Shown here: piece by piece, positions 1,810 to 11,809 of the stretch
Layout: every line of letters starts with the position of its first letter
How positions within the stretch are numbered: the stretch's first letter is position 1
Source of the DNA: Candidatus Tectimicrobiota bacterium
Lineage (GTDB): Bacteria > JACPSX01
Assembly: GCA_016193065.1 (NCBI GenBank)
Contig: JACPSX010000149.1
Coordinates: 1,690 to 14,706 of the forward strand
Length of the DNA stretch: 13,017 nucleotides
Reading direction: 5' to 3'
Program-made: the position numbers and the translations under genes
The notes under the pieces: model-generated
Told to the model about the DNA's origin: nothing
Seen by the model: the letters and a program-made list of their open reading frames with translations, nothing else
The model's database searches: none

Positions 1810-2118
1810 TCAAAGTGGGGGGTAGCGCTCCCACATCTTCTCGTTCAGAAAGCGCTTCAGCCGCAGGCGGATCTCGGAGGGCATGCTGTCGCAGGAAATC
1901 TCCCGGCTTAAGTCAATCGTCTGCCGGTAGGTCCTCATCATCGCGAAACAGTTTGGGCAATCCGTAAAATGAGAATCGAGTCGGGCGCGATCCCCGCCAA
2001 GCATGGTTCCGTCCACGTAGTCGATGAGCAGCCGCGTAAGAGCCTCGCAAGAAATCCCCCTGGTCGCCAGAAGCCAGCAGCCTAAGCTGCTCCACAATTT
2101 TCTAAACAGGCTAAACAT
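1810..2118 (-). CDS. Orphan zinc-binding anti-sigma factor (zf-HC2 type)
   Basis: Predicted 102-residue soluble protein. H50, C54 and C57 in HFTDCPNC, with C24 upstream, form the HxxxCxxC zinc motif of ZAS-type anti-sigma factors, which bind an ECF sigma factor and hold it inactive. No membrane helix is present, so it should act in the cytoplasm. I count 14 differences from the anti-sigma at 2739-3047 over 102 positions, so the two are recent paralogues. Unlike its paralogues it has no sigma gene upstream; a terminator (2213-2244) and a short sigma relic (2119-2193) are there instead. The ATG at 2118 is chosen because AGGAG lies 9-10 bases upstream and it aligns with the paralogues. It could sequester the sigma factors of the other modules; that is inference. 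Confidence 0.8.
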   Translation of the reverse strand: MFSLFRKLWSSLGCWLLATRGISCEALTRLLIDYVDGTMLGGDRARLDSHFTDCPNCFAMMRTYRQTIDLSREISCDSMPSEIRLRLKRFLNEKMWERYPPL

Positions 2119-2193
2119 CGCCGCCCACTCCTGCTTCGTTTCTTTTGGATAGCCCGGACCGGCCGGATACTGAGAACGGAGTCCGGCTCCCGC
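2119..2193 (-). pseudogene. Relic of the 3' end of a lost ECF sigma gene
   Basis: Read on the minus strand, about 22 bases (CTCAGTATCCGGCCGGTCCG and on) match the sigma gene at 7620-8246 just before its stop with about 3 differences, in the same position relative to the anti-sigma start. In the intact gene this encodes the tail after NLSQYLTGAG. The rest of the sigma gene is gone, replaced by the terminator at 2213-2244. This is DNA-level homology seen by eye over a short stretch. Confidence 0.5.
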
Positions 2194-2212
2194 AACGTGT
2201 GAATCTTCTGCG

Positions 2213-2244
2213 AAGAAGAAAAAAGGGGGCCCCGAAGGGCCCCC
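2213..2244 (-). terminator. Rho-independent terminator after the repeat-protein gene
   Basis: On the minus strand an 8-base perfect stem GGGGGCCC / GGGCCCCC (plus-strand arms 2225-2232 and 2237-2244) closes a TTCG tetraloop and is followed directly by TTTTTTCTTCTT. It lies 13 bases past the stop of the gene at 2258-2584 and should end that transcript before the orphan anti-sigma gene. Confidence 0.9.
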
Positions 2245-2257
2245 CGGAGATTGGCAG

Positions 2258-2584
2258 CTAGCTGATCTCCCGATCCAGACTCTCCTGAGCAATGCTTCCC
2301 GGAGCCCGATCCACTAGCTCGGGCAGCGCGCTACCCGAAACCACGGCGGGCACCGCCGGAGAATTGATCTCCCGATCCAGACTTGCCTGCGCGATGCTGC
2401 CCGGGCCTCGGTTCTGCCGATCCCATACCTCGCTTGCGGGCACGGTGGCGGAAACCGCCGGGGAGTTGATCTCCCGATCCAGACTCGCCTGGGCGATGCT
2501 TCCAAACTCTGCCCAGGCACTGGCAGACCCAAGAACCAGGACCGCCGCAACCGTCAAACCCATCAGACTTTTTCCTGCCTTCAT
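2258..2584 (-). CDS. Small exported protein with 34-residue tandem repeats
   Basis: I do not recognise this 108-residue protein. It starts with a Sec signal peptide (MKAGKSLMGL, a hydrophobic stretch, then ASAWA with likely cleavage after residue 25). The mature part is almost only repeats: GSIAQASLDREINSPAV begins at residues 28 and 62, exactly 34 apart, and a third, shorter copy GSIAQESLDREIS begins at 96 and ends the protein. The linkers between cores are Pro/Ala/Val-rich and less conserved. The ATG at 2584 is chosen for the AGGAGG six bases upstream. It lies 154 bases downstream of the anti-sigma gene at 2739-3047 and ends in a strong terminator, so it may be transcribed alone or with that pair. 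A periplasmic role, perhaps as signal or target of the sigma system, is inference; no catalytic motif is visible. Confidence 0.7.
   Translation of the reverse strand: MKAGKSLMGLTVAAVLVLGSASAWAEFGSIAQASLDREINSPAVSATVPASEVWDRQNRGPGSIAQASLDREINSPAVPAVVSGSALPELVDRAPGSIAQESLDREIS
2261..2503 (-). repeat. Coding tandem repeat, 102-base period, two full units plus a partial one
   Basis: Units cover 2402-2503, 2300-2401 and 2261-2299. The plus-strand core TGATCTCCCGATCCAGACT occurs identically in all three, and conservation falls in the linkers. The DNA similarity suggests recent unit duplication within the gene. Confidence 0.85.
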
Positions 2585-2738
2585 GACCTTCCTCCTAGTT
2601 AATCTGTTTGTTGAGTCTCGCTCTCCCGGCTCTATCGCCAGGTTCACTTACTTCTTGCCTACTAAGATGAAAAAGATCCGGGAAGGATTCAGGAATTTTG
2701 CAGATGGGTCGGGATGACGGAACAGAAGAAGGACCAGA
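2585..2738 (-). promoter_or_regulatory. Leader of the repeat-protein gene, duplicated copy of 1666-1809
   Basis: Intergenic stretch between the anti-sigma stop and the repeat-protein start. It shares the CTGAATCCTTC ... TTTCATCT ... CAAGA block (minus strand) with the leader of the FHA-protease gene. This suggests that a block of anti-sigma gene plus leader was duplicated. The promoter itself is not resolved. Confidence 0.4.
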
Positions 2739-3047
2739 TTAAAGAGGGGGGTAGCGCTCCCACATCTTCTCGTTCAGGAAGCGTTTCAGGCGCAGGCGGA
2801 CCTCGGAAGGCATGCAATCACTGGAAATTCCCCGGCTTAAGTCGATCGTTTGCCGGTAGGTCCTCATCATCGCGAAACAGTTGGGGCAATCCGTGAAATG
2901 AGAATCGAGTCGGACGCGGTCCCCAGCCGGCATGGTTCCGTCCACATACTCGATGAGCAGCCGCGTAAGCTCCTCGCAACGAATCCCCCTGGCCGCTAAA
3001 AACCACCAGCCCAGGCTGCTCCACAATTTTCTAAACAGGCTAAACAC
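2739..3047 (-). CDS. Zinc-binding anti-sigma factor paired with the frameshifted sigma gene
   Basis: Predicted 102-residue soluble ZAS/zf-HC2 protein with C24, H50, C54 and C57 as probable zinc ligands. The GTG start at 3047 overlaps the end of the sigma reading frame (stop at 3040) by 8 bases, a typical translational coupling; GGGAGG sits just upstream, and the start aligns with VF/MF in the two paralogues. It is intact, although the sigma gene it follows carries a frameshift, so it may have no full-length partner from its own operon. About 86% identical to the orphan at 1810-2118 by my count, and more distant from the one at 7318-7614. The family call is firm; the partner is inferred from position. 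Confidence 0.85.
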   Translation of the reverse strand: MFSLFRKLWSSLGWWFLAARGIRCEELTRLLIEYVDGTMPAGDRVRLDSHFTDCPNCFAMMRTYRQTIDLSRGISSDCMPSEVRLRLKRFLNEKMWERYPPL

Positions 3048-3667
3048 CGCCTCCCTCTCCTGTTTCGGGCTGCCGGTTGCCCGCATCGGTCAGATACCGG
3101 GAGAGGTTCTCCCGTACAAACAGACGCGCCCGATGCAGCCGGGACTTTACCGCAGCTACCGACAGACCGCAAATTTGTCCCACCTCCTCGTTGCTCAGAC
3201 CATCGACATCTTTCAGGAGCAGGACTTCCCGATACTCGCCGGGGAGCTTTTGAATGGCCGCATCCAGGTGCCTGGCCAGTTCCTTGCTCAAAGCCCCGCC
3301 TTCCACCCGGTCCGTCCAGTCCTCCACGGGTCCCGAACCGGGGCATGTAATCGTCCAGGGAAACCGTGGCTTCTTGTTCCTTCTTGCGCCCCCGGAGCTT
3401 CAGGTAGCAGAGATTTTTGGCGGTGGTGAAAACCCATGGCAGGAAAGAGCCCGGTTCCCTCAGCGTGCCAATCTTCTCCAAAATGGTAACAAAGACCTCC
3501 TGGAGTACCTCCTCGGCGTCGGCGCTGTCGCCCGTCATTTTCAGCGCGTAGTAGTAGAGCTTCTCCTGGCACTGCTCCAGGATAGACTCTAGCGCCGTCT
3601 TATCCCCGGATTGGAGTCGCTTGACAGCCTCGGCGAGGGTCGCACTAACCTGCATATCCTTGACCAT
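3040..3667 (-). pseudogene. ECF-type RNA polymerase sigma factor, frameshifted between sigma-2 and sigma-4
   Basis: Residues from MVKDMQ through DYMPRF encode a good sigma-2 region (ALKMTGDSADAEEVLQEVF, GSFLPWVFTTAKNL). The reading then leaves frame: against the paralogue at 7620-8246 there are 5 bases (3330-3334) where the intact gene has 19, a 14-base deletion. The sigma-4 region (LPGEYREVLLLKDVDGLSN, then the VAAVKSRLHRAR helix) follows in another frame and ends at 3040. The sigma-2 frame stays open to 2996, so a chimeric product of about 223 residues is possible. A GTG at 3327 could start a separate sigma-4 polypeptide, but I see no strong ribosome site. The start at 3667 aligns with the paralogue. 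Most likely inactive; an assembly error is the main alternative. Confidence 0.75.
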
Positions 3668-3723
3668 GGGTCCCAAATTCCCCGGTTTTTAACGTATCCT
3701 GGAGTTAGCTGCCCTAAAAGCAC

Positions 3724-3893: not shown

Positions 3894-5030
3894 ATGAAAC
3901 GGCCGAATCCCCTTCTCCTTTTTGCCCTTGTCCTCTACCTTTCCGGACTCCCCTTTGCCCTCCGCAGCGATGGCGCGGACGGCGCAAAGTTATGGACGGG
4001 GGATGCCCCCTGGAAGACCGATTTTCGCCGCCATTCGGTTCCCCTGGAGGAGATCATCTCGGGCGGCCCTCCCCGCGACGGGATCCCCTCCATTGACCGC
4101 CCCCTTTTTGTTTCTCCCGAAGCAGCGGCATCCTGGCTTTCCGGCGCGGAGCCCGTGATCCGCCTGGAAGTGGGACGGGAGGCAAAAGCTTATCCACTCC
4201 AGATTCTTATGTGGCACGAGATTGTGAACGACGCCATTGCAAGGACACCGGTTGCTGTGACCTTTTGTCCGTTGTGCAACTCTGCCTATGTGTTTGACCG
4301 CCGCCTGGAAGGAATGATCCTGGAATTTGGCACCACGGGGCGGCTACGGCACAGCGATCTCATCATGTACGATCGGCAGACCGAGTCCTGGTGGCAGCAG
4401 ATGACCGGCGACGCGATTGTGGGGAAACTGACGGGGAAGAGGCTCGCTACCCTGCCGGCCAGCATGATCTCTTTTGCAGACTTTCGAGCGGCCCATCCGG
4501 ATGGAAAAGTCCTGTCTCGAAAAACGGGCTTCCGGCGATCCTACGGGCAAAATCCCTACGTCGGCTACGACCGGATCGACCAGCCACCCTTCCTCTTTCA
4601 GGGAAAGATCGACAATCGCCTTCCACCCATGGAACGGGTGGTCACCGTGAGCGTCGGGACAACCCACAAGGCGTATCCCTATTCAGTCCTCTCCCGCAAG
4701 AAGGTCGTGGCGGATGAGGTGAATGGAAAAAGGATTGTGGTTTTTTACCTGGAGGGAATGGTCTCCGCCCTTGACGGTCCTGCAATCGCCGAGTCTCGGA
4801 AGGTTGGAGCCAGCAGCGTGTTCGAGGACTCCATAGGTGGACGACGCCTCTCCTTTGTCGAAGAAGGAGGCTTCTTCAAGGACCGGGAGACAAAGAGCAC
4901 CTGGAACATCCTGGGACAGGCGTTGGCGGGGCCGCTGAAAGGGCGAGCCCTGACGCCCGTCATTCATGGAGACACATTCGCCTTTGCGTGGTTTGCCTTC
5001 AGGCCTGGTACCCTGCTCTACAATCCCTAG
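3894..5030 (+). CDS. Exported DUF3179 family protein, copy 1
   Basis: Predicted 378-residue protein with an N-terminal signal peptide (MKRPNPLLLF followed by a hydrophobic stretch to about residue 25). The rest fits DUF3179, a family of unknown function: VPLEEIISGGPPRDGIPSID near 49-68, AYPLQILMWHEIVND near 99-113, FCPLCNSAYVFDR near 124-136 with C125 and C128, then LIMYDRQTESWW near 156-167 and NPYVGYD near 220-226. The invariant-looking H108 and CPLC pair could bind a metal or form a disulfide; that is inference. AGGAG lies eight bases before the ATG. It is divergent from the broken sigma gene and followed 279 bases later by a close paralogue. The operator-like element at 3814-3846 may control it. 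Confidence 0.85.
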   Translation: MKRPNPLLLFALVLYLSGLPFALRSDGADGAKLWTGDAPWKTDFRRHSVPLEEIISGGPPRDGIPSIDRPLFVSPEAAASWLSGAEPVIRLEVGREAKAYPLQILMWHEIVNDAIARTPVAVTFCPLCNSAYVFDRRLEGMILEFGTTGRLRHSDLIMYDRQTESWWQQMTGDAIVGKLTGKRLATLPASMISFADFRAAHPDGKVLSRKTGFRRSYGQNPYVGYDRIDQPPFLFQGKIDNRLPPMERVVTVSVGTTHKAYPYSVLSRKKVVADEVNGKRIVVFYLEGMVSALDGPAIAESRKVGASSVFEDSIGGRRLSFVEEGGFFKDRETKSTWNILGQALAGPLKGRALTPVIHGDTFAFAWFAFRPGTLLYNP

Positions 5031-5309
5031 CCAGGTTGCTTAGCAGAAGGGCAAAGGAAGTCAGTCGCTGACTTCTTGAAGAGCATCCGAAAAAGACATG
5101 GAACGACAGGTTGCGCAAAAATGGCTCGTATGCTACGCGGTCAGGAGCAAAATGTGTGACCTAAAAGTACTTCAGGCGCCGGCGGAGCGGCGAACCCCAA
5201 AGATCGCTCGTGTTCTTTCGAGGGTGAGAATGTGGTGAGATGGCCCTAATGGATCGGCAACTTGTCGGTCCGTGTGTTCTGGGGACCATTCACAAGAGGA
5301 GGGAATTCC
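5031..5309 (+). other. Intergenic region between the two DUF3179 genes, with one hairpin
   Basis: A perfect 8-base stem GAAGTCAG / CTGACTTC with a TCG loop sits at 5057-5075, 27 bases after the first stop. Only TT follows, so it is at best a weak terminator. The same stem with a compensated base pair appears at 11635-11656. I see no clear promoter or convincing small gene in the remainder. Confidence 0.5.
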
Positions 5310-6530
5310 ATGAGACTTATCGGTCCGATTATCACAGTACTGGCGACCGGTGTGCTCGGACTGGTCGTGGCAGTGACTGCAGGCCCCCTTCCGACCCACA
5401 ATCCCTGCGGAGCAGCGAATCCATGCGCTTCCCAGCAGATCACCAATCCTTGTGCGGCAACAAATCCCTGCGCGGCCCAGGGCCCATCGTCCATCGTCGA
5501 GGAGGTCCCCTGGAAGACCGATTTCAGTCGGCACTCGGTTCCACTGGAGGAGATCACCTCAGGTGGCCAACCCCGAGATGGCATCCCCTCCATTGACCAC
5601 CCCCGCTTTGTAACTCCACAAGAGGCAGTGTCCTGGCTTGCAGGCGTGGAGCCCGTAATCAGCCTGAAAGTGGGGGGAGAGGCAAAAGCCTATCCTATGC
5701 AGATCCTCACGTGGCACGAAATCGTCAACGATACAATTGCCGGGATACCTGTAGCCGTGACCTTCTGTCCCTTGTGCAACGCCGCCTATGTGTTTGACCG
5801 GCGTCTGGACGGGCTCACGCTAGAATTCAGCACCTCAGGGTTTCTGCGCCGCAGCACCCTGATCATGTACGACCGACAGACCGAATCCTGGTGGCAACAA
5901 TTTATCGGCAACGCCGTTGCCGGAAAGCTTATGGGGAAGCAACTGTCCCATCTTCCTGCCAGCATCATTTCCTTTGAAGACTTCCGTGCTGCCCATCCCG
6001 GAGGCAAAGTACTGTCTCGGGAAACAGGATACGAAAGACCCTACGGGCGGAATCCTTACGTCGGCTACGACCGAATTGACCAGCCTCCATTTCTCTTCAA
6101 GGGGAAGATCGACGACCGTCTTCCCCCAATGGAACGAGTGGTCACCGTCAACCTTGGTGAGATCCACAAAGCTTACCCACATTCGATTCTTTCCAAGAAG
6201 AAAGTCGTGACAGAAGAGCTGGCTGGTAAACAGATCGTGATCTTTTACCGGAAGGGAACTGCATCGCCTCTTGATGGACCCAAGATCTCTGAGTCGCGAA
6301 GGATTGGATCCACCGGTGTCTTCGAGAGTCACCTGGGCGGGCGTCGCCTCACTTTTGTCGCAGAAAGAGATTCCTTCAAAGACAGGGAAACAAAAAGCAC
6401 CTGGAATATTCTGGGACAAGCAGTCGCGGGTCCACTGAAGGGACAGGCCCTGTCGCCTGTTGTTCACGCCAACCTCTTCGCCTTTGCCTGGTTTGCCTTC
6501 AGGCCCAATACGCTTATATACAATCCTTAG
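5310..6530 (+). CDS. Exported DUF3179 family protein, copy 2, with NPC-repeat segment
   Basis: Predicted 406-residue paralogue of the preceding gene, collinear with it from the PWKTDF segment (residue 67 here, 39 there) to the shared end YNP. The CPLC pair is at C153/C156 and the WHEIVND segment is kept. A signal peptide spans about residues 1-25. The extra 28 residues sit near the N-terminus and contain four NPC units (C33, C39, C48, C54). AGGAGG seven bases before the ATG at 5310 fixes the start; the frame is open upstream to 5262. The two genes must be a tandem duplication, later diverged. Function is unknown; the NPC segment may bind metal, form disulfides or act as a spacer (inference). 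Confidence 0.85.
   Translation: MRLIGPIITVLATGVLGLVVAVTAGPLPTHNPCGAANPCASQQITNPCAATNPCAAQGPSSIVEEVPWKTDFSRHSVPLEEITSGGQPRDGIPSIDHPRFVTPQEAVSWLAGVEPVISLKVGGEAKAYPMQILTWHEIVNDTIAGIPVAVTFCPLCNAAYVFDRRLDGLTLEFSTSGFLRRSTLIMYDRQTESWWQQFIGNAVAGKLMGKQLSHLPASIISFEDFRAAHPGGKVLSRETGYERPYGRNPYVGYDRIDQPPFLFKGKIDDRLPPMERVVTVNLGEIHKAYPHSILSKKKVVTEELAGKQIVIFYRKGTASPLDGPKISESRRIGSTGVFESHLGGRRLTFVAERDSFKDRETKSTWNILGQAVAGPLKGQALSPVVHANLFAFAWFAFRPNTLIYNP
5400..5471 (+). repeat. NPC repeat segment (four units)
   Basis: The codons for NPCGAA, NPCASQ, NPCAAT and NPCAAQ form an irregular coding repeat just after the signal peptide of the second DUF3179 protein. The first copy of the gene lacks it. Confidence 0.8.
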
Positions 6531-7317: not shown

Positions 7318-7614
7318 TCAGCGCTCCTGTATTTTCTCCTTCAGGAAGCGCTGCAGGCGCAGGCGGACCTCGGAGGGCATGGAGTTGTTGGAAACCCCCC
7401 GGCTCAAGTCAATCGTTTGCCGGTAGGTTCTCATCATCGAGAGACAGTGGGCGCAGTCCTTGAAATGAGCATCGAGCCGGGTGCGATCCTCGGCGGGCAG
7501 AGTACCATCGACGTAGCCGATGAGCAGCCGAACCAGTTCCTCGCAACTGACTCCACGGGCCGCTGAGAACCAGCAGCCCAGTGTATCCCGGACTTTCTTC
7601 AGCAAGTTGAACAC
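7318..7614 (-). CDS. Zinc-binding anti-sigma factor paired with the intact sigma gene
   Basis: Predicted 98-residue soluble ZAS/zf-HC2 anti-sigma factor with C24, H50, C54 and C57 (HFKDCAHC). The segment SMMRTYRQTIDLSRG and the Lys/Arg-rich C-terminal helix match the two paralogues at 1810-2118 and 2739-3047, but it ends four residues earlier. I chose the GTG at 7614 because it aligns with VF/MF of the paralogues, follows the sigma stop by five bases and has GGGAG at a fitting distance. The same frame is open far upstream through the sigma gene, but that part is an out-of-frame reading. It should inhibit the sigma factor encoded at 7620-8246. Confidence 0.85.
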   Translation of the reverse strand: MFNLLKKVRDTLGCWFSAARGVSCEELVRLLIGYVDGTLPAEDRTRLDAHFKDCAHCLSMMRTYRQTIDLSRGVSNNSMPSEVRLRLQRFLKEKIQER

Positions 7615-7619
7615 TGTCC

Positions 7620-8246
7620 CTACTCCCAGCTCGCCTGCTTTGTCCCCGCACCGGTCAGATACTGAGAGAGATTCTCCCGTACAAACAGGCGCGCCCGGTG
7701 CAGCCGGGATTTTACCGCAGCCACTGACAGACCGCAAACCTTTCCCGCCTCCTCGGCGCTCAAGCCTTGGACATCTCTGAGGAGCAGGATTTCCCGGTAC
7801 TCGATGGGGAGTTTCTGAATGGCCGCATCCAGGTGCCTGGCCAGTTCCTTGCTCAGTGCCCCGCTCTCGACCCGGTCCGACCAGTCCTCCACGGCCCCTA
7901 TGTGCCCGCGGTTGAACCGGGGCATGTAGTCCTCCAAGGATACTGTGGCATCTTGATCCTTCCTGCGCCCCCTGAGCTTCAAGAAGCACAGATTCTTTGC
8001 GGTGGTGAACACCCATGGCAGAAAAGAGCCCGGCTCCCGCAGCGTGCCGATCTTCTCCAGCACCGTAACAAAGACTTCCTGGACAACCTCCTCCGCGTCC
8101 GCGGGGTTGCCGGTCATTTTTAAGGCATAATAGTAGAGGCGCTCCTGGCACTGCTCGAGGATAGACTCCAGAGCCGCCTTATCCCCGGATTGCAGTCTCG
8201 TGACGGCCTCGATGAGGGTGTCGGTGTTTTGCGGATTCCTTGCCAT
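7620..8246 (-). CDS. ECF-type RNA polymerase sigma factor (intact copy)
   Basis: Predicted 208-residue sigma-70 family ECF factor. Sigma-2 spans about residues 25-95 (ALKMTGNPADAEEVVQEVF, GSFLPWVFTTAKNL). The linker 105-125 is complete, including NRGHIGAVEDWSDR, which the frameshifted paralogue lacks in part. Sigma-4 spans about 135-192 with the helix-turn-helix LSAEEAGKVCGLSVAAVKSR that reads the -35 element. The ATG at 8246 is chosen by alignment with the paralogue and because the upstream DNA (CCGGGGAAT then GGGA) is shared non-coding leader; the ribosome site is weak. It is co-transcribed with the anti-sigma gene five bases on. A candidate autoregulated promoter is at 8303-8328. Family firm, regulon unknown. 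Confidence 0.9.
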   Translation of the reverse strand: MARNPQNTDTLIEAVTRLQSGDKAALESILEQCQERLYYYALKMTGNPADAEEVVQEVFVTVLEKIGTLREPGSFLPWVFTTAKNLCFLKLRGRRKDQDATVSLEDYMPRFNRGHIGAVEDWSDRVESGALSKELARHLDAAIQKLPIEYREILLLRDVQGLSAEEAGKVCGLSVAAVKSRLHRARLFVRENLSQYLTGAGTKQASWE

Positions 8247-8302
8247 GGATCCCAGATTCCCCGGTTGCCAGCATACCCTGGGTTTAACTGACTCTACAAC
8301 AA

Positions 8303-8328
8303 AACATGGATGGCGGGCTACAAGTTCC
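8303..8328 (-). promoter_or_regulatory. Candidate ECF-type promoter of the intact sigma gene
   Basis: Minus-strand GGAAC (8324-8328), then 18 bases, then GTT (8303-8305), 57 bases before the start codon. Identical architecture and distance to the site at 3724-3749 in front of the paralogue, while surrounding bases differ more. Suggests that the sigma factor reads its own promoter. Confidence 0.4.
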
Positions 8329-8360
8329 TTTGACCGGAAAGTATTTTCAGACCCTAGCGA

Positions 8361-8410
8361 AAAATCAAGGGGAAACACGGCCGGGGCTGCACCGGCTGGC
8401 CCCGGCCGTG
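8361..8410 (-). terminator. Strong terminator of the cupredoxin-lipoprotein operon
   Basis: A perfect 12-base GC-rich stem (arms 8376-8387 and 8399-8410, CACGGCCGGGGC and complement) with an 11-base loop lies 25 bases past the lipoprotein stop. On the minus strand TTTCCCCTTGATTTTT follows the stem, so termination of the minus-strand operon is expected. Confidence 0.8.
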
Positions 8411-9802: not shown

Positions 9803-10378
9803 ATGTCTGCGGACCTGAAGGACGACCCGGTTCAGTTAATCCAACAGGTTGCCGGTGGGGACCGCGAGGCGTTTGGGCGGCTTTATGACCGCTACGCCTC
9901 GCTCGTCTTCACCTTCGCTGTACGCCTGCTCAATCGGCCCTCCGAGGCAGAAGATCTCCTCCAGGAAGTCTTCCTGCAGGTCTGGCGCCAGGCGAGAACC
10001 TATCGCCAAGACCGGGGGAGCCCGGAGGCGTGGATCACCATGATCACTCGGAGCCGGGCAATCGATAAGCTTCGTTCCATACGTAGAATAGAGAAGAGCC
10101 TCACGTCCCTGGAGAATGCGCCTGGCGTGAAGTCTGGAGGTACAGTGGAGACCGTAAGTGAGGAATCGGAGTTAAACCTGACGGTGCGCGGGGCTCTGGC
10201 CGAGCTTCCTGAGGTCCAACGGAGGGTGCTGGAACTGGCTTATTTTGAAGGGTTAACGCAGTCCGATATTGCCGCACGCCTGGGAGAGCCGCTGGGTACG
10301 GTAAAGACCCGCATGCGTGCCGGCCTGGAACGGCTGCGGGGATTTCTCGGTGCAAAGGCCAAAGGGGAGCTCTCATGA
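9803..10378 (+). CDS. ECF sigma factor, SigK/RskA-type pair
   Basis: Predicted 191-residue ECF sigma factor, not closely related to the other two in the window. Sigma-2 covers about residues 24-95 (FGRLYDRYASLVFTFAVRLL, AEDLLQEVFLQVW, TRSRAIDKLRS) and sigma-4 about 128-182 with LPEVQRRVLELAYFEGLTQ and the DNA-reading helix GTVKTRMRAGLERLR. GGAGG a few bases before the ATG at 9803 supports the start; the frame is open upstream to 9719. The stop overlaps the start of the next gene as ATGA, so the pair is translationally coupled. The RskA-type partner places it among sigma factors released by membrane anti-sigma proteolysis. The gene symbol is withheld because orthology to mycobacterial sigK is not shown. 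Confidence 0.9.
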   Translation: MSADLKDDPVQLIQQVAGGDREAFGRLYDRYASLVFTFAVRLLNRPSEAEDLLQEVFLQVWRQARTYRQDRGSPEAWITMITRSRAIDKLRSIRRIEKSLTSLENAPGVKSGGTVETVSEESELNLTVRGALAELPEVQRRVLELAYFEGLTQSDIAARLGEPLGTVKTRMRAGLERLRGFLGAKAKGELS

Positions 10379-11133
10379 ACCACGAAGAGTGGCTTGCACG
10401 AGCAGAAATTTATGCCCTGGGCGCCCTGGACGGAGAGGATCTGACCCTGTTCGAAGCTCATCTAGCCTCAGGGTGTAGCTCTTGCGAGACACGCCTCCGC
10501 GAGACCCAGGAAACGCTCACCCTTCTCCCTCGCTCCCGCACGCCGCTAGCCCCTCCACCTGCCGTCAAGGCCAGGCTCCTTGCCCAAATTGCAGGGGAAG
10601 CAAGCAGGCCTCAGGAGAAAAGACTTCCCGGCTGGCTTTCATGGGGGGTGGGAGCCGGGGCTTTGGTAGCCGCCAGCTTGTTGATTGTTTTAGGCTGGAA
10701 CCTCTCCGTCACGAGGCAAGAGATGCAAAGGCTCAAAAACCAGGTGGCTGCCCTGGGAGATGAAGTGAACCAGCAACAAGAGGTCGTTCGCTTCCTCTCC
10801 GACCCCCAGGTGCGCTTCGTCCAGCTTGCAGGCCTTGCGCCAAGCCCTGCAGCCACGGGTCGGTTACTGTGGAATCCGGTGAAGCATGCGGGGCTTTTCC
10901 TGAGCAGCGGCCTTCCTCCGACCCCATCCGGCAAAGCATACGAGCTTTGGGCTATTGCCGGCAGCGAGCCCGTCCCGGCTGGCGTCTTTACCGTCGATCA
11001 GGGAGGCCGGGTCCTCTATCGTCTCCCACCTCTACCCGAAACAAAAACGTTCGACAAGTTCGCGGTCACGCTGGAGCCCGCAAGTGGTGTTCCCAAACCC
11101 TCCGGCGCCATGTACCTGCTCGGGAGCTTGTAA
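10375..11133 (+). CDS. Membrane anti-sigma factor, RskA-like
   Basis: Predicted 252-residue single-pass protein. The cytoplasmic N-terminus (1-50) has the anti-sigma zinc-type motif H29, C34, C37 (HLASGCSSC) after an ALGALDGEDL segment. A membrane helix lies near 87-109, then a short coiled coil (112-140), and an outer RskA C-terminal domain from about 160, with GKAYELWAIAG, PAGVF and the ending AVTLEPASGVPKPSG typical of that domain. Such proteins hold an ECF sigma at the membrane and release it after regulated proteolysis. The ATG overlaps the sigma stop by four bases. The gene looks complete, although the opposite strand carries the end of a redoxin reading frame from 11133 back to 11032. 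Confidence 0.9.
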   Translation: MNHEEWLARAEIYALGALDGEDLTLFEAHLASGCSSCETRLRETQETLTLLPRSRTPLAPPPAVKARLLAQIAGEASRPQEKRLPGWLSWGVGAGALVAASLLIVLGWNLSVTRQEMQRLKNQVAALGDEVNQQQEVVRFLSDPQVRFVQLAGLAPSPAATGRLLWNPVKHAGLFLSSGLPPTPSGKAYELWAIAGSEPVPAGVFTVDQGGRVLYRLPPLPETKTFDKFAVTLEPASGVPKPSGAMYLLGSL

Positions 11134-11508
11134 GGCAGAGATTTGCGCCCCGGCGTGAGCAAGCTTCTGTGCAAAGCTGCGGTGGGCCGGGAAGTGCTCG
11201 CCCGGATGAGCCTCGCGGGTATATACGAAGAGAAAGGCAATACCCTTTGCCGCAAACTGCCGCGCCATCGGTTCAAGCGCCAGCGCCGCCAGCGCACAGT
11301 AAGGTCAGGTCAGCGAGCCAAACTCAATGACCACGTCACCCTTTCGCCAATAGTCACTCAGTTGAACCGATTGGCCAGTTTCAAGAAGCATAGCCTGAAA
11401 GTCGGGTGCCGGGGATCCCACGGGTAAAATGGTGCGAAATGCCAAGAATTCCTCTGAACCCACAAACCGGCTGTAGTTATAAACTTCGATCTCCGCCTGA
11501 TCGATCAT
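11032..11508 (-). CDS. Redoxin/deiodinase-like protein with in-frame UGA at the active site (candidate selenoprotein), 3' end truncated
   Basis: The minus-strand frame from ATG 11508 (AGGGGG six bases upstream) gives YNYSRFVGSEEF, a VGSPAPDF segment and VVIEFGSLT, the usual approach to a thioredoxin-fold active site. The next codon is TGA at 11305-11307, then PYC and in the same frame GIAFLFVYTREAHPGEHFPAHR and FAQKLAHAG. Bacterial redoxin/deiodinase-like proteins have Cys or selenocysteine exactly after FGSxT, so reading TGA as Sec gives U68-P-Y-C71, a thioredoxin-type redox pair. Both halves are clearly one gene. From about residue 122 (near 11146) to the stop at 11032 similarity is lost, and the last 102 bases are antisense to rskA; the C-terminal half seems deleted. 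Alternatives: an opal mutation in a decaying gene. No SECIS element was verified. Confidence 0.65.
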
Positions 11509-11540
11509 CACGCACCCCCTTTCCTACCCTCACTACTCTA

Positions 11541-11559
11541 CGGGTCTTAACTCGACCCG
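11541..11559. repeat. Hairpin in the redoxin leader
   Basis: Perfect 6-base stem CGGGTC / GACCCG with a 7-base loop, 33 bases before the redoxin start codon. No T-tract. May form in the leader RNA. Confidence 0.45.
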
Positions 11560-11634
11560 CCAGCGCAACTTTCCTCTGGAAACCTCCCGCCCCAAGCCCG
11601 AAAGCACAAATGGAAGCGATGGATATGCCATCAA

Positions 11635-11656
11635 GAAGTCGGCGGGTTCCGACTTC
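11635..11656 (-). repeat. Hairpin at the predicted 5' end of the redoxin transcript
   Basis: Perfect 8-base stem GAAGTCGG / CCGACTTC with a 6-base loop. It begins 8 bases past the candidate -10 box, so it would open the transcript. The stem repeats that at 5057-5075 with one compensated base pair, and both are followed by TTGA. Confidence 0.5.
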
Positions 11657-11663
11657 CCGGTAA

Positions 11664-11692
11664 AGTATCAACCTTTCGATAACACCGGTCAA
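11664..11692 (-). promoter_or_regulatory. Candidate sigma-70 promoter of the redoxin gene
   Basis: Minus-strand TTGACC (11687-11692), a 17-base spacer and GATACT (11664-11669). It would give a leader of roughly 150 bases containing the hairpins at 11635-11656 and 11541-11559. Good match to consensus, but the distance to the gene is long. Confidence 0.45.
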
Positions 11693-11776
11693 GTCCCGAT
11701 CCCACATTTCACAAGCGAAACTGCCTCCTCTCTTTCCTTTGAAAATTTGTCTGTCTCACTCCTTCCACCGTCGTCA

Positions 11777-11809
11777 TTGTAAGCTTGCCTACAATGCAGG
11801 CTGATTCGG
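11777..11809 (+). promoter_or_regulatory. Operator-like element shared with 3814-3846
   Basis: Contains the inverted repeat CATTGTA / TACAATG (11775-11781 and 11790-11796) and matches the element before the first DUF3179 gene at 19 of 22 core positions in the same orientation. It lies 36 bases before the -35 box of the kinase promoter. The 390-base region 11509-11898 otherwise holds only the promoters and hairpins listed here. Confidence 0.4.

Follow-up and report, generated by a model that had tools for sequence, protein, structure and literature searches.

Does the UGA codon that interrupts a redoxin-like frame in the window, by which we mean the whole 13,017-nucleotide stretch of DNA analysed here, encode selenocysteine (Sec), and does the gene that contains it still yield a working protein? 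The frame, on the minus strand, begins with an ATG (11508-11506), meets the TGA at codon 68 (11307-11305) and runs on to the next in-frame stop at 11034-11032. Reading through the TGA gives a product of 158 residues, in which PYC and then a redoxin body follow in the same frame. The initial annotation had proposed that this is a candidate selenoprotein with a U-P-Y-C motif, the UGA standing at the redox position with P-Y-C directly after it, and this placement is borne out.

The in-frame UGA and its homologues

The following features define the gene up to the end of its homology:
11515..11525, minus strand: Shine-Dalgarno-like AGGAAAGGGGG, read from the sequence
11149..11508, minus strand: homologous part of the deiodinase-like (UPYC) gene, from the ATG to codon 120, Sec codon included (Pfam matches; alignment with 9 homologues; 24 invariant positions retained)
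11305..11307, minus strand: in-frame TGA, putative selenocysteine codon 68, at the redox position of U-P-Y-C (TGA in 11/11 UPYC homologues)

The gene has a good ribosome-binding site, AGGAAAGGGGG, placed 6 nt before the ATG at 11508. Against Pfam, the 158-residue product scores 39 bits for AhpC-TSA, 37.7 for Redoxin and 32.3 for T4_deiodinase, all over the respective cut-offs, and these matches span the UGA; the T4_deiodinase match covers residues 12-107 around the Sec (cut-off 27). The 68-residue piece upstream of the UGA, taken alone, passes none of these three cut-offs.

Homologues were collected from a scan of genome contigs, from 400 genomes of Chloroflexota and from 386 genomes spread over the domain. 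Two good relatives came from the contig scan, one in a Thermomicrobiales MAG (56% identity) and the other in a Ktedonobacterales MAG; each has an in-frame TGA at the corresponding codon. Further homologues were found in Chloroflexota MAGs and beyond; a search of plasmids returned one weak match only. In total, 11 UPYC homologues from separate genomes align with the window gene across the UGA, as the initial annotation had suggested checking, and every one of them carries TGA at the Sec codon. Thus, its claim that the UGA does not occupy this position by chance is confirmed. More distant deiodinase-like members present TGA, Cys or other residues at that codon.

The window copy has changed none of the 24 positions that are invariant in the 11 other UPYC sequences. 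Compared with L057, its nearest relative, it is 55% identical before the UGA and 72.5% identical after it, and in the tree it clusters with the Thermomicrobiales protein (support 96/95). A 466-residue open frame antisense to the entire UPYC gene of that Thermomicrobiales relative (L021, 3002-4402, minus strand) is probably a high-GC artefact.

Hairpin and selenocysteine machinery

A bacterial SECIS (bSECIS) element downstream of the UGA had been proposed as a check, and the outcome supports the Sec reading:
11277..11295, minus strand: bSECIS-type hairpin, 7-bp stem GCGCUGG/CUGGCGC, loop CGGCG (covariation; MFE -12.3 kcal/mol)

The hairpin, 16-17 nt downstream of the UGA, has a stem of 7-8 bp, a loop of 3-5 nt and a G in the loop's first two positions, and the 36 nt counted from the UGA fold with an MFE of -12.3 kcal/mol. 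These values lie within the published bSECIS constraints (loop 3-9 nt with G in its first two positions, stem 4-16 bp, distance to the UGA 16-37 nt, MFE <= -7.5; PMC13188914), and compensatory changes across the family accompany the hairpin. We compared ten UPYC genes, numbering the stem from the first base of the UGA (positions 13-19 with 25-31): 87% of the stem cells are paired, against 30-47% when the partners are slid by 1-3 bases. No shuffle out of 500 attained the covariation score of 0.429, and four pairs have changed on both sides. The inner five pairs form in all ten sequences, the window included, where two of them are G-U. The shuffle control leaves relatedness in, while the slid control removes it and gives an agreeing result. 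Since the hairpin is no more stable than shuffled sequences (z = -1.0, not exceptional), its support comes from the covariation. A search of Rfam with positions 11000-11800 gave no matching family.

We then consider the machinery in the window's own genome, an assembly of 2.9 Mb in 294 contigs that is 86.29% complete. A full selB is present (C175:260-2179), together with two selD genes (contigs 175 and 120), each having an in-frame TGA near its start in a UxxK context. The two selD genes (L049 8391-9449; L050), both of the Sec type, have diverged from each other. Thus, the search for sel genes named in the initial annotation succeeded for selB and selD; selA and selC (tRNA-Sec) were not found in this 86%-complete assembly. 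For comparison, selA scored above the cut-off in 22 of 40 other genomes, and the homologue-bearing genomes that were checked have both tRNA-Sec and selB (5/5). Matches to tRNA-Sec at 47-50 bits in the window's own genome were rejected, ARAGORN having identified them as tRNA-Trp and tRNA-Ser. Because selB starts 260 nt from a contig end and selA lies directly upstream of selB in two other genomes, an assembly gap is a reasonable, though not proven, explanation for the missing selA and tRNA-Sec; a search of the 260 nt preceding selB on its contig found no piece of selA. The formate dehydrogenase of this genome has no in-frame stop and therefore adds no evidence for Sec.

The conserved TGA, the covarying bSECIS-type hairpin and the selB with two UGA-containing selD genes together back the proposed UPYC selenoprotein. 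At the level of sequence, the UGA at 11307-11305 is supported as the selenocysteine codon of a deiodinase-like redox gene, homology and covariation being the grounds for both the codon and its hairpin. In this mechanism SelB and tRNA-Sec would read the UGA as selenocysteine, with the hairpin at 11295-11277 directing them.

Place among deiodinase-like proteins

Bacterial deiodinase-like selenoproteins have been described since 2005, from the Sargasso Sea (PMC1088965), and a 2026 review gives UxxC as their motif (PMC13188914). The window gene belongs to this already described group. With its members (PF00837) it shares the thioredoxin-type fold, an active-site Sec followed by Cys, a bSECIS after the UGA and a T4_deiodinase match over the cut-off. 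It differs from them in that the window copy is without its C-terminal half, and in that UPYC proteins reach only 42-64 bits against the NCBIfam model NF038285 (deiodinase_rel): 42.4 bits for the window and 53-64 for full-length homologues, all below the cut-off of 250. A whole-genome search with PF00837 gave no match in the window's own genome, but the control genomes were also blank, so this result is uninformative on absence.

Two other families come close. The Redoxin family selenoproteins (PF08534; PMC13188914) likewise have a UxxC motif, and the Redoxin Pfam match is of comparable strength; however, the solved structure that matches best by sequence is iodothyronine deiodinase 3 (4tr3, E = 4e-12) and not a redoxin. 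A Foldseek search of the predicted fold returned thioredoxin-like proteins, ResA and deiodinases. The ResA/TlpA thiol-disulfide oxidoreductases thus resemble the UPYC protein in predicted fold and in their CxxC-type active site, but they are only 15-19% identical to it in sequence, have Cys where it has the Sec, and lack its additional C-terminal helices.

Fold and motif suggest that intact UPYC members are most likely thiol/selenol redox enzymes acting through the Sec-x-x-Cys pair. Such a redox protein would have about 235-248 residues and a thioredoxin fold, and its active-site helix would open with the Sec-x-x-Cys pair. The neighbours of the homologues show no consistent shared function, and a literature search on 'UPYC' returned only matches with unrelated titles. 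It is conceivable, and we put it forward tentatively, that UPYC is a separate clade of deiodinase-like selenoproteins with a function distinct from that of the wider family: all 12 sequences, from distant genomes, have Sec and none has Cys, and they carry a C-terminal extension past the thioredoxin fold.

Elsewhere in the window, two tandem genes on the plus strand (3894-5030 and 5262-6530) belong to DUF3179 (Pfam) and both have Cys in a CPLC motif; DUF3179 is among the families with selenoprotein members (PMC13188914).

Truncation at the rskA junction

Downstream, the frame runs into its convergent neighbour:
11032..11148, minus strand: non-homologous read-through tail, no counterpart in homologues, mostly antisense to rskA
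10375..11133, plus strand: RskA-like anti-sigma factor gene, intact, convergent (PF10099 RskA_C, 86 bits, profile 3-133 of 135)

The homology of the window copy stops after FAQKLAHA (~11149), at residue 120 of about 248 and ~50 residues past the Sec. The relatives continue for ~130 residues more, a stretch that contains the thioredoxin fold's PNMT loop; UPYC homologues measure about 235-248 aa, with about 163-180 residues after the Sec. In one UPYC homologue with TGA and hairpin (L069, 1483-2088, plus strand), ~31 residues including the PNMT loop are missing in frame; L069 has 134 residues after the Sec. The redoxin-like body of the initial annotation therefore holds as far as FAQKLAHA; nothing in the relatives corresponds to the final ~39 codons of the frame. 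As homology ends at ~11149 and the frame enters rskA in antisense, the 158-residue read-through is neither the natural protein nor a normal family member, a point that the initial annotation missed: compared with the family protein, its C-terminal half is missing.

In the AlphaFold model of full-length L057 (mean pLDDT 72.8), the break falls inside helix 112-126. The elements beyond it, namely strands 132-134, 152-155 and 160-165, the PNMT loop and the subsequent helices, are absent from the window copy, which does not contain a complete thioredoxin-fold domain with PNM(T) loop. On this model the window product is unlikely to fold.

Genes for ECF sigma factors and zf-HC2 anti-sigma factors also occur in the window as paralogous sets, on the minus strand (1810-3676 and 7318-8378). 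In the sigma gene at 2996-3676 only region 2 is matched in its frame and the remainder lies in a different one (3040-3327), suggestive of a frameshift.

We consider it likely that the locus is a deiodinase-like UPYC selenoprotein gene with a Sec-decoded UGA, which recently lost its C-terminal part here and is now probably non-functional. A deletion or rearrangement in this genome would have taken ~130 residues from the C-terminus, extending as far as the end of the adjacent rskA, whose stop lies ~15 nt from the truncation point. The loss is judged recent because the copy retains its Sec codon, its hairpin and every family-invariant residue. The same intactness is what a live gene would show, and the assembly is fragmented, so the gene could instead be whole in the organism, encoding a full-length selenoprotein of ~248 residues, with the break at 11149 a metagenome assembly error. 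The junction argues otherwise: GC content is even across it (~58-60%), rskA is complete right up to it, no long shared sequence is visible that could cause a false join, and the missing half appears nowhere else in the assembly (chance-level match only, E = 0.3). We favour a real deletion over an assembly error and regard the latter as improbable.

The preserved Sec codon and bSECIS would also suit a truncated 158-residue form that works as a short selenoprotein, and L069 likewise dispenses with a block including the PNMT loop. Such a form would have to function without that loop, the core strands and one thioredoxin-fold helix, and with a tail that is mostly rskA antisense, which makes it very improbable. 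An ordinary nonsense mutation in a Cys gene, with no Sec codon at all, would agree with the truncation and with the failure to find selA and tRNA-Sec in the assembly, but it is hardly credible in view of the TGA shared by all 11 homologues, the tRNA-Sec and selB in all five of their genomes checked, the covarying hairpin, and the selB and two UGA-containing selD genes of the genome itself. On the preferred reading of a recent loss, the window copy is probably a decaying gene, most likely non-functional or nearly so.

Standard gene calling would leave a 68-residue orphan at this UPYC locus. Read as proposed, it contributes a Sec-encoding gene to its lineage and, taken together with selB and two selD, a Sec-using organism. 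The compact bSECIS of the UPYC clade, with its clear covariation, is directly testable, and the truncated copy may be a selenoprotein gene caught soon after breaking, its Sec signal still intact.
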